Source: Rhodocyclales bacterium
GTDB taxonomy: Bacteria; Pseudomonadota; Gammaproteobacteria; Burkholderiales; Rhodocyclaceae
Assembly (NCBI GenBank): GCA_021286885.1
Contig: JAJTBM010000059.1
Coordinates: forward strand, 1-11,128
Direction of reading: 5' to 3'
Length of the DNA: 11,128 nt
Part shown: in pieces, positions 6,199-11,128 of the stretch
Position numbering within the stretch: the stretch's first letter is position 1
Layout: each line of letters begins with the position of its first letter
Program-made: the position numbers and the translations under genes
The notes under the pieces: generated by a model
The model's database searches: none
Told to the model about the DNA's origin: nothing
Seen by the model: the letters and a program-made list of their open reading frames with translations, nothing else

Positions 6199-6236
6199 GG
6201 CCCATCAAGGCCCATCAGGTCACAATCAGGTCACAA
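6199..6236. repeat. Two adjacent short tandem duplications
   Basis: GGCCCATCA occurs twice with a 10-base period (6199-6207 and 6209-6217). It overlaps the start of a perfect 11-base duplication, TCAGGTCACAA at 6215-6225 and 6226-6236. Both lie in the short gap between the bidirectional terminator and the chemoreceptor stop codon. They look like slipped-strand duplications; no function is evident. Confidence 0.7.
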
Positions 6237-6245
6237 ACACGCGCC

Positions 6246-8267
6246 TCAGACCCGGAAGTGGGACACCTCGGAGCGCAGTTGCTGGGCGAGGTTTTCGAGG
6301 CGGCGGGCAGTGGAGGCCGTGGCCTGGATTTCGGTGTTGTTGCTCTCCGCCATTTGGGCAATCTGCTCGACGTTGCGCGCAATTTCCGAGCTGGTCACAC
6401 CCTGCTCCCGCAGGGATTGGGAAATCACGGCCACCACGCCGACCACCTGATCAGCCCCACTACGGATCTGCCCCATGGACGCGCCGGCCTCCCCTGCAAG
6501 AGCCACCCCGGCCTGAACCCGAGCCACCCCATCTTCCATGGTCTGCACGGCCCGGCCCGTGCCCGCCTGAATGGCATTCACCATCTGGGTAATTTCGCCG
6601 GTTGCCTTGGTGGTGCGTTCGGCCAGCTTGCGCACCTCATCGGCCACCACCGCAAAACCCCGCCCGGTTTCCCCTGCCCGGGCCGCCTCAATCGCGGCAT
6701 TCAGGGCCAGCAGATTGGTTTGATCTGCAATTTCCTTGATCGAATTCACGCTGCTGGCAATCTGGGCCGCTTGTTCGCCCAAAGCCTGGATCACGCCCGC
6801 CGATTCACGCACCGATACGGCAATCCGCTCCATGTCAGTCACGGTCTGAGCCACCACCGAGGCGCCGGTCTGGGAGAGTTGGCCAGAGCTGGACGAAACA
6901 CCTTCGGCCTCTTGGGCGCTATGGGCAATTTCTTCGATGCTGGTGGTCAGCTGCTCGACCGCAGCCGCCATGGCCGAGGCTGCATCGTTCTGGCGACTGG
7001 ATCCCATGGAGACTTGGCTGGCAGACCCCGCCAAGGCCACAGCCGCCGTAGTGACATCCTGGGCACCACTTTGCAGCTTGCGGATCACGTCCGCAAAACT
7101 CTGGGCCATCTGATTGAACTGCTGGGCCACCTGGGCCAACTCATCCTGAGTCGAGAGCTGAATGCGGGTTGCCAGATCGCCCCCCGCCAAGGTTTTAGCC
7201 CCCGCTTGCAACTCCGCCACCGAGCGGGTGACCGACAGGCAGAAAGCCACCGAGAAATATACCATCACCAGCAAGGCTGCCCCCGTGAGGGTGCTGGCCA
7301 GATAAAAACTACGCTCGTAATCGGCCACCCGCTGGGTCAGCATGCGCTGTATGGCGGGTTGGAGGCTCTGCTCGGACTCGGTAAACACCAGATCAATGCT
7401 CTCGCTGACCAGCGCGAAGTAGGTGTCTGGCTTCATCTCGAACTGGCCTTTCAGGATCTGCCCTTCCAGTACTTGCAGTGTCTGGTCGACCCCCTGATTC
7501 AGGCGCGTATTCAAGCCCTCCAGGGTGCTGCGCAGACCGGGGTTAAAACTGGCCGCCCGGGTGAAGTTCTCGTTGAGTTCGCCGCGCACCATGTTCAGCT
7601 CACCAATCTGGGTGCTGATTTCATAGCGCAGGGCATCATCCAGACTCTTGCTCACCAAGGCATTGGTGCCACTGGCTCGCAGGCGTCCCAGGCGCTCAGC
7701 CACGTCCGGCATGCCATGGAGCACATTCACGATCAGATAATAGGTATCTGCCACCGGATCCAGGGAGAGATAGCCGTCATCCCCCAGATCATGCAGGGCC
7801 AGGGTGGCCTGGGCGATCATCTGGCTATGGATTTTGCGGCTTTCCTGGGGCGACATGCTTGCGCCACGCTGCTTGATGTCCTCCCAGTCCCGCACCACCT
7901 GGCTCCAACGCTTATGGGCCGTGGGCGCAACACTGGCCGGCAGCGCATCATTCACCTTGTGGAAGGCGCGATCCAGCTCGGCGGTTTTCTCATCCAGCCG
8001 CCCTTTCATGCTCACATCCCCCTTGAGCACCCATACCGAGAGCCCTCGGTGCTGCTGGGACAGCCGGATAAAATGCACCACGCTCGGCACCCGCCCAATG
8101 GCATCCTGCTCATGGGCGGCGAAATCGATGTTCTCCTTGAGGGTGACGGTGAACTCGTACAGCAAAAAGCTGATGACAGGCACCGCGATCAGGCCCATCA
8201 ATACAAACTTGGCCGAGTATCTCAATCGATTGAGCAACAGAATGCCAGGCTCAAACAAAGCTTTCAT
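6246..8267 (-). CDS. Methyl-accepting chemotaxis protein
   Basis: This 673-residue transmembrane chemoreceptor has TM1 at about 18-37, a large periplasmic region (38-320), TM2 (about 321-345), a HAMP domain (346-398) and a cytoplasmic signalling coiled coil (400-673). The hairpin tip that contacts CheA/CheW is intact at about 511-533 ([22 protein letters not shown] region). The periplasmic part looks all-helical. [12 protein letters not shown] stretch (71-81) and a [11 protein letters not shown] stretch (169-179) resemble paired helical-bundle sensor domains, including the nitrate/nitrite-sensing type, but the ligand cannot be inferred. No CheR-binding pentapeptide is seen at the C terminus (ends SHFRV). 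The ATG at 8267 is preceded by GGAGGT; a longer frame starting 20 codons earlier lacks such a site. A sigma-28-type promoter lies upstream. Confidence 0.96.
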
Positions 8268-8389: not shown

Positions 8390-9100
8390 TCAGCCCGCCA
8401 CCAAGCACCCATCCTGCAGTTGCAGACTGCGGGTGGCCTGGGCCGCAAGCCGGTTGTCGTGGGTGACGATGATGAAGCTGGTGCCCTGATCCCGGGCCAG
8501 GCCCAGCATCAGCTCAAACACTTTGTCGGCGGTCTGGCGGTCCAGGTTGCCGGTGGGCTCGTCGGCCAGCACGCAAGCCGGACGCGTCACCAGCGCACGG
8601 GCGATGGCGGCGCGCTGGCGTTCGCCCCCGGAAAGCTCGGCGGGGGTGTGATCCAGGCGGTGGCCCAGCCCCACCGCCTCCAGGGTGGCCTTGGCCTGGG
8701 CCAGGGCCTCAGGGCGCTTCATGCGGCGCACCAGCAGGGGCATGGCCACGTTTTCGAGGGCGGTGAATTCGGCCAGCAGGTGGTGAAACTGATACACGAA
8801 GCCCAGCGATTCATTACGCAGCCGGCCCCGCTCCTTGTCGGAGATGCTGGAAAAATCCCGCCCAAGCAGGCGCACCGCGCCCCGGCTGGGCACATCCAGC
8901 CCCCCCAGCAGGTGCAGCAGGGTGCTCTTGCCGGAGCCCGATGAACCCACAATCGCCAGTTGCTCGCCCCGCCGCACCGCGAGGCTCACCCCCCGCAGCA
9001 CATCCACGGCGGCGGCGCCTTCGCGGAAGGTCTTGCCCAGATCGGTGCATTCAAGCACCAGGCCCCCGTCGGCGGGCTGAATCACTTGGGTTTCACTCAT
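8390..9100 (-). CDS. lolD: Lipoprotein-releasing ABC transporter ATPase LolD
   Basis: This 236-residue ABC ATPase energises release of outer-membrane-destined lipoproteins from the inner membrane to LolA. Walker A is GSSGSGKST (52-60), the Q-loop lies in FVYQFHHLL (101-109), the signature is LSGGERQR (156-163), Walker B is CVLADE (176-181) and the switch His is in VTHD (212-215). The FVYQFHHLL sequence is characteristic of LolD among related export ATPases such as MacB or FtsE. The start ATG (9100-9098) overlaps the lolC stop by eight bases, typical of a tightly coupled lolC-lolD unit. Length is normal. The gene is followed by the chemoreceptor, which has its own promoter. Confidence 0.95.
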
Positions 9101-10331
9101 AGCGCAGGGCCTCCGCCGGGTTGAGGCGGGACGCCCGCCAGCTGGGATACAGGGTGGCCACCAGGGTCAGCACAAAGGATACGGCGGTAATCGCGATCAC
9201 ATCGCCCCACTGCAGTTCAGAGGGCAGATCGGAGATGTAATACACGTCCTTGGACAGGAACTGGATGCCCAGGAGGCGCTCGATGGCCGGCACCACCACG
9301 TCGATGTTGAGGGCCAGACTCACCCCGCCGGCCACGCCCAGACCCAGGCCAATGAAGCCGATCAGGGCCCCCTGGATCACAAAAATGGCCATGATCGAAC
9401 CCGGGCTGGCCCCCAGGGTGCGCAGGATGGCAATGTCGGCCTGCTTGTCCTGCACTGCCATGACCAGGGTCGAGACAATATTGAAGGCCGCCACCGCCAC
9501 GATGAGCAGCAGGATGATGAACATCACGTTCTTCTCGATCTGCACCGCCCGGAAGAAATTGGCGTGGCTGCGCGTCCAGTCGGAGGCCATGGCATCGGCG
9601 TCCAGGTATTTGGCCAGCTCGTGGGACACCCGGGGCGCGGCAAACAGATCGTCGATCTTGAGGCGCACCCCGCTCACCCGGTCTTCCATCCGGTACAGGG
9701 TCTGGGCGTCCTGCATGTGGATCAGGGCCAGGCTGGAGTCGTACTCGAACATCCCCACCTCAAAGATGCCCACCACCTGAAACTGCTTGAGCCGGGGCAG
9801 GATGGCCGCTGGCGTCACCAGGCCCTGGGGCGCAATCAGCGTCACCTTGTCGCCGGGCATCACATGCAGGGCCCGGGCCAGGTCGGCCCCCAGGCCCGGC
9901 GGGAGATCCTCCAGGCGGCCCGACTTCATGTGCTGGGCGAAATCGGCCACCTTGTCCTCGGCATCCGGCAACACCCCCCGGATCAGCGAGCCGCGTACCG
10001 ACTGGTCAAAAGACAACATCCCCTGGGCCTGGACAAAGGGCGCGCTGGCCAGCACTCGGGGGTGCTTGGACACCTCGTCCGCCACCCGCTGCCAGTTGTT
10101 CAACTCCCCATCGTAGCCACTCACCTGGACGTGGGAAGCCACCCCCAGGATGCGGGTACGCAGCTCCCGCTGGAAGCCGTTCATCACCGAGAGCACCACA
10201 ATCAGGGCCGCCACACCAAGGGCAATCCCCAGCATGGACACCATGGAAATGAAGGATATGAAGCGATTGCCACCCTGGGCACGCCGCTTGGAGCGGGTAT
10301 AGCGCAGGCCAACCAGAAATTCGTAAGACAT
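9093..10331 (-). CDS. lolC: Lipoprotein-releasing ABC transporter permease LolC/LolE family
   Basis: This 412-residue inner-membrane permease has the standard LolC/E layout: TM1 (26-50), a large periplasmic domain (about 51-267), then TM2 (268-292), TM3 (313-340) and TM4 (377-397). The cytoplasmic coupling segment [17 protein letters not shown] (293-309) and the C-terminal [11 protein letters not shown] (402-412) are strong family marks. The periplasmic [14 protein letters not shown] stretch (171-184) sits where the LolA-contacting hook lies in LolC. Only one permease gene is next to lolD. Either a LolE partner is encoded elsewhere or this is a LolF-type subunit working as a homodimer, so the symbol lolC is provisional between those. 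It overlaps lolD by eight bases. No clear promoter element is seen in the 257-base gap upstream. Confidence 0.93.
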
Positions 10332-10538
10332 GGAAACCCGTTCGGAAAACGCCCGAGACTGGCGCAGGCGCGCATTGTGCCGGACTTGGCCAAGCGGGGG
10401 TATCCCGAAAGTGCATCAAAACACGGCAAAGCTGTGCAGAAGTGGCGCCGAATCCATTCCAAAAGAATAGTTCCTTTAAAAATCGACACGCGCTGCTTTT
10501 TGCTGGAAGGGGCTGGCTAGAATCCGTCGGCGTTTTAC

Positions 10539-10552
10539 ACAAATACATTTGT
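10539..10552. promoter_or_regulatory. Inverted repeat in the divergent gap, possible operator
   Basis: ACAAAT-AC-ATTTGT is a perfect 6+2+6 palindrome inside an AT-rich patch of a GC-rich genome, 37 bases before the plus-strand lipoprotein start. The divergent gap (10332-10588) holds lolC's upstream region and this one. A TAGAAT (10518-10523) could be a -10 element for the plus strand, but its -35 is poor. The palindrome could bind a dimeric regulator or be chance in AT-rich DNA. Confidence 0.3.
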
Positions 10553-10588
10553 TTTCAAAAGTTTGCACCAACCCCCAAGCTACGGACA

Positions 10589-11128
10589 ATGCGCACCATG
10601 ACCGCTATCCCCTCTTTCAGCTCTCCGTCCCGCCTCCTGACCACCCTCGCCCTGGGCAGCAGCCTGCTGACCCTGAGCGGCTGTGCCAACATGCAGATGG
10701 GGGCTGAAGAAGCCAAGACCACCGCCACCGGATCAGCCGGCGGCGCCAATACCCAGAACGCCAACGCCAAACTCGAAAAGTGCGATGCACCCCTGGGCAC
10801 CATCACCGTGGTGGAAGACACCAACGCGCCCTGGTACGGCATGCTCACCGGGCAAATGAAGCTGGGCTCCACCGTGCCGGTCATCAACGGCCTGACCGAC
10901 CGTTCGCACCCCTGCCAGATTCTGGCCGATCTGCAGACAATCGAGGAGCATTCCGGCCCGGTCGCCGGCAAGACGATCGCCTGGATCGGCGACGGCAACA
11001 ACGTCTGCCACAGCTTCATGCACGCGGCGCCCAAGTTCGGCTTCCACCTGAACGTCGCCTGTCCGGCGGAATACCACCCCGACCTGCGCGATCTGGAAAA
11101 GGGCGGCGCGGCCGTCACCCTGACCAGC
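10589..11128 (+). CDS. Chimeric frame: CsgG-type lipoprotein start joined to ornithine carbamoyltransferase core (partial)
   Basis: The frame is open for 180 codons to the window edge. Residues 1-32 form a lipoprotein signal with lipobox LSGC (29-32). The following Ala33 predicts outer-membrane sorting by the Lol system. Residues 61-98 ([30 protein letters not shown]) resemble the start of CsgG/HfaB-family lipoproteins, which normally go on to a QQSNCFVVVERG segment. Instead, from about residue 96 the sequence matches ornithine carbamoyltransferase: [13 protein letters not shown] (107-110), [19 protein letters not shown] (127-138). The carbamoyl-phosphate motif STRT and the whole N-terminal domain are missing, so this product could not be a normal ArgF enzyme. 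No frameshift or composition change marks the join. It is either a genuine gene fusion by rearrangement or an assembly chimera. The start could also be the second ATG (10598). Confidence 0.75.

Follow-up and report, generated by a model that had tools for sequence, protein, structure and literature searches.

Metagenome assemblies contain chimeric contigs, which the passages of PMC8171044 dealing with them attribute to "chimeric nodes" of the de Bruijn graph, in which sequence shared by two species links them; chimeric contigs made up 12.7%, 12.5% and 18.0% of the length in three assemblies tabulated there. Here, we analysed an apparent in-frame fusion between a CsgG/HfaB-type lipoprotein gene and an ornithine carbamoyltransferase gene (argF) at the end of a betaproteobacterial contig. 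From the sequence comparisons described below, the apparent fusion is almost certainly an interspecies assembly artefact, a judgement that takes in both a join made in the assembly graph and a chimeric read.

The window, by which we mean the whole stretch of DNA analysed (11,128 bases), spans the full length of contig C51 in the draft genome G000 (3.44 Mb in 611 contigs, completeness of 80.53% and contamination of 2.78%), and the window end is the contig end. An open frame runs on the forward strand from an ATG at 10589 to 11128, giving 180 codons without a stop, and it is truncated by the contig end since the window is the whole contig. Its translation carries an LSGC lipobox with the cysteine at residue 32 (judged by eye, without a signal-peptide program), 20 further residues (not shown) followed by GDGNN after the lipobox, and an HPCQ motif, while the STRT motif is absent from the translation of 10589-11128. 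The uninterrupted frame, the lipobox cysteine, HPCQ, the GDGNN-type sequence and the absence of STRT are as the first-pass annotation had read them.

The first part of the frame (10589..10866, forward strand; residues 1-92, with the Cys32 lipobox) is the 5' portion of the host's own CsgG/HfaB-family lipoprotein gene, based on identity to the database protein P0002 and matches in seven of 22 other same-genus genomes. P0002 has 295 amino acids and is encoded on a contig of 1141 bases; it agrees at every position with window residues 1-99 and diverges thereafter (KLLIQQSN versus NGLTDRSH in the window, with codon 100 being Lys versus Asn). It matches PF03783 (CsgG) at residues 104-260 with 33.8 bits against a cut-off of 20.8, a region that lies past the join. 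The window frame itself has the lipobox cysteine and no PF03783 match in Pfam; its left part is assigned to CsgG because P0002, identical over residues 1-99, matches this family. The earlier reading of a CsgG-like first part to about residue 98 thus holds through P0002, although not through a Pfam match of the frame. DNA of the csgG-type gene was found in 7/22 other genomes of the same genus at 79-84% nucleotide identity, and all seven matches end at 10887. Relatives of the left part in a scan of contigs were the betaproteobacterial loci L019 and L024 (among the best 80 of 589 relatives), and we call the host Zoogloea-like because P0002 resembles the Zoogloea sp. proteins P0123 and P0124. Several other relatives in the CsgG/HfaB family, including P0189 and P0196 (among the best 120 of 6459), carry an extra PF01471 domain that P0002 does not have.

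From residues ~90-94 onward, the frame is ornithine carbamoyltransferase according to Pfam and NCBIfam profiles. The end of PF02729 (E of 7.4e-9) and the start of PF00185 (E of 4.5e-11) are matched in the frame, and the match to NF001986 (E of 6.8e-34) covers only profile positions 116-195 of 307, with 117.4 bits versus a cut-off of 306. As a member of ArgF the frame therefore shows the HPCQ motif, and it lacks the two complete domains and the carbamoyl-phosphate STRT motif. At the DNA level, 10867-11128 is identical in 260/262 bases to argF on locus L124 (genome G081), the best among the matches listed, with both differences (at 10921 and 10939) being silent, so that the right part is identical in protein. 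G081 belongs to the genus of Brevundimonas naejangsanensis (G032), and a search of this genus matched 129/131 genomes at E <= 0.001, a count that includes G099 (22 bases only) and G079 (150 bases, at a contig end). Residues 94-180 had their best relatives in L41A, an unclassified alphaproteobacterium (94%), then in Brevundimonas and other Caulobacteraceae (best 80 of 589 relatives); the genome of L41A, G031, itself falls among genomes of the Brevundimonas naejangsanensis genus. On these identities the tail is of foreign origin, and the foreign part makes up the last 241-262 bases of C51, with 10888..11128 (forward strand) being the misjoined piece of Brevundimonas argF according to the 260/262 identity over 10867-11128.

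When the fused protein was searched against genomes of the same genus, an ArgF match was found in 10/12 at a protein identity of 53-57% and was absent in the other two (77% and 82% complete). A deletion bringing together two genes of G000 was rejected on this level of likeness to same-genus ArgF and on the finding that PF02729 and PF00185 have no match elsewhere in the genome beyond the tail. We also compared the 6.5 kb around a Brevundimonas argF (L003:2000-8500) with G000, and found, besides the tail (90%), four short matches of 69-82%, which rejects transfer of a larger Brevundimonas region. Regarding a mobile-element origin, megablast of 10589-11128 returned no phage record, and megablast of 10850-11128 returned one plasmid record, a Sphingomonas argF aligned over 24% of the query with 91% identity, and this origin was likewise rejected. 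Separately, the assembly seems to lack both the argF proper to this genome and its aspartate carbamoyltransferase, a member of the same Pfam family (no PF02729 besides the tail; completeness of 80.53%). Two further database proteins have unusual structures of their own. P0048 (208 amino acids, from a contig of 706 bases) resembles a further chimera, between two argF genes, with an N-terminal part unlike Brevundimonas, a conserved stretch and then a Brevundimonas-like part; P0050 (190 amino acids) starts with MCIRDS just ahead of ArgF sequence, presumably a translated sequencing adapter.

The join lies somewhere in 10867-10887, where the nearest relative switches abruptly; the earlier estimate of 10874-10882 falls within this interval. 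This switch stretch (10867..10887, forward strand) comprises 21 bases assignable to either parent, its limits being set by where L124 and the csgG-type sequences cease to match. Identity to L124 argF starts at 10867, with a mismatch at 10866 and no match farther left, while the DNA of P0002 can match the window to 10887 at most (its Lys codon 100 corresponds to 10886-10888). Because argF fails at 10866 and the csgG-type relatives fail from 10888, the overlap cannot exceed 21 bases, an upper bound derived from the P0002 protein and the DNA of relatives. Both parents encode STVPVI at the join in the same reading frame, which is why the frame stays open. Against an overlap of this length, the 21-mer at 10867-10887 was found, besides the window's own loci, in L124 alone; none of the fetched csgG-type relatives has it, seven of them differing at 3-5 places (79-84% overall identity). 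The smallest default k in common short-read assemblers is 21. In favour of the artefact, two genomes of such sizes (3.44 and 3.5 Mb) would have ~5 (GC of 50%) to 33 (GC of 65%) 21-mers in common by chance. Brevundimonas loci totalling 143,557 bases and same-genus loci totalling 55,633 bases had no 21-mer in common, with ~0.02 expected by the same formula.

These results would fit the assembly of a mixed sample, in which betaproteobacterial (Zoogloea-like) DNA probably co-occurred with Brevundimonas DNA. The assembly would have left the csgG-type gene inside the stretch of <=21 bases shareable with Brevundimonas argF, run ~241 bases into argF, and stopped at the contig end. Such a join was probably made in the assembler's graph rather than by a chimeric read, and the host gene would share its third-codon bases with argF in the overlap. 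The other form of the artefact, a chimeric read or library molecule formed by template switching or ligation between organisms and then assembled onto the contig end, is unlikely, though it deserves some weight. The tail terminates the contig and, at 241-262 bases, would have roughly the size of one read or of a merged pair. However, a switch within a shareable stretch of <=21 bases is what a graph join predicts and what random ligation does not, although template switching could make use of such a stretch as well.

Evidence on the proper continuation of the csgG-type gene came from a second contig of the same genome, C325 (4088 bases). Searching P0002 against the window's genome placed residues 118-295 on bases 3-536 of C325 at 99% identity. 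On L106 (G010) the left part of the window matches as far as 6263 and the match to C325 begins at 6212, and on L107 (G012) these positions are 9960 and 9909, leaving a gap of 50 bases in both; the csgG-type gene is unbroken across the gap in both loci, and C325 stays in line with them for a further 2.5 kb. The residue numbering of P0002 also gives 50 bases absent between C51 and C325. Since the two contigs are colinear on L106 and L107 with a gap that agrees with this numbering, C51 and C325 are, from gene order and sequence, neighbours, and the argF tail is out of place on C51.

This arrangement bears directly on the option of a real recombination, in which Brevundimonas argF DNA would have entered a Zoogloea-like genome by STVPVI microhomology and broken the csgG-type gene. 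The continuous frame is what such an event could leave, and one contig alone forbids nothing, but the 3' part of the csgG-type gene heads C325 in line with two relatives, an intact protein (P0002) exists, the 6.5-kb region around argF has few counterparts in G000, and the contig stops inside the foreign piece. We consider this option highly improbable, and there is similarly little chance of a variant in which a cross-class microhomology recombinant occurs in part of the population beside cells with an intact csgG-type gene. Each parent gene is also known whole and free of the fusion (P0002 and L124 argF), and a protein covering both parts was found only as the window's own P0001, from one contig (best 120 of 7958 matches, with 8000 candidates scored). 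With the fused protein as query, none of the 12 genomes of the same genus gave a match spanning both parts. Among the origins proposed in the first-pass annotation, the assembly chimera is upheld by the 260/262 identity of the tail to Brevundimonas argF and by the continuation of the gene on C325, while a join by deletion or recombination finds no support, and neither does the idea that the parent genes were lost or copied. Searches of the rest of the genome for the parent genes, as it had advised, brought up the csgG-type 3' part on C325 and no other PF02729 or PF00185 match.

Upstream of the frame, an FtsX/MacB-type (LolC/E-like) permease gene at 9093-10331 (reverse strand) is 87-90% identical in 11/12 same-genus genomes, with no full-length match in G008. 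Relative to G010, the permease gene is 15 bases short (5 residues, read as EFGIV there), spanning 1236 bases in the window versus 1251 in all 11 full-length same-genus matches, which could result from either a genuine deletion or a further assembly error. In the window, 257 bases (10332-10588) separate the permease from the csgG-type gene, and a 501-codon open frame lies between the two on L106 (G010; 6638-8143, reverse strand).

An expressed fusion lipoprotein, with the displaced half of ArgF acting at the cell surface, would make use of the lipobox and the open frame. All evidence for a chimera counts against it, and the ArgF piece equals the L124 protein with silent changes only, which argues for a piece of a functional argF and not for a decaying or re-purposed fragment; its probability is negligible. 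A real fusion product and the exported dead enzyme fragment proposed earlier were both rejected on the basis of P0002, the L124 argF match and the continuation on C325. The argF fusion is best regarded as an artefact for which no biological explanation is needed, and its value is as a warning only. The only ornithine carbamoyltransferase match found in G000 is foreign, and a pathway annotation counting the tail would therefore be wrong. The protein collection searched already contains the fused product (P0001, 177 amino acids, with two Pfam domains). More generally, where one short motif is encoded by both parents, an open frame over a join is weak evidence that a fusion is genuine.

Among the closest known proteins are two CsgG/HfaB-family proteins of Zoogloea sp., P0123 (83% identity to P0002 over 90%) and P0124 (87% over 86%), whereas the window's contig bears residues 1-99 only. 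The right part equals L124 in protein and is 97% identical to P0005 among Brevundimonas ornithine carbamoyltransferases, and unlike them it is without the enzyme's first part and, as the contig ends there, its last part. As a whole, the locus resembles the chimeric contigs described in the relevant passages of PMC8171044 in that a common stretch appears to join sequences of two species; in those passages the common stretch links evolutionarily similar species, whereas here a betaproteobacterium and an alphaproteobacterium would be joined through an overlap of <=21 bases at the end of a contig.
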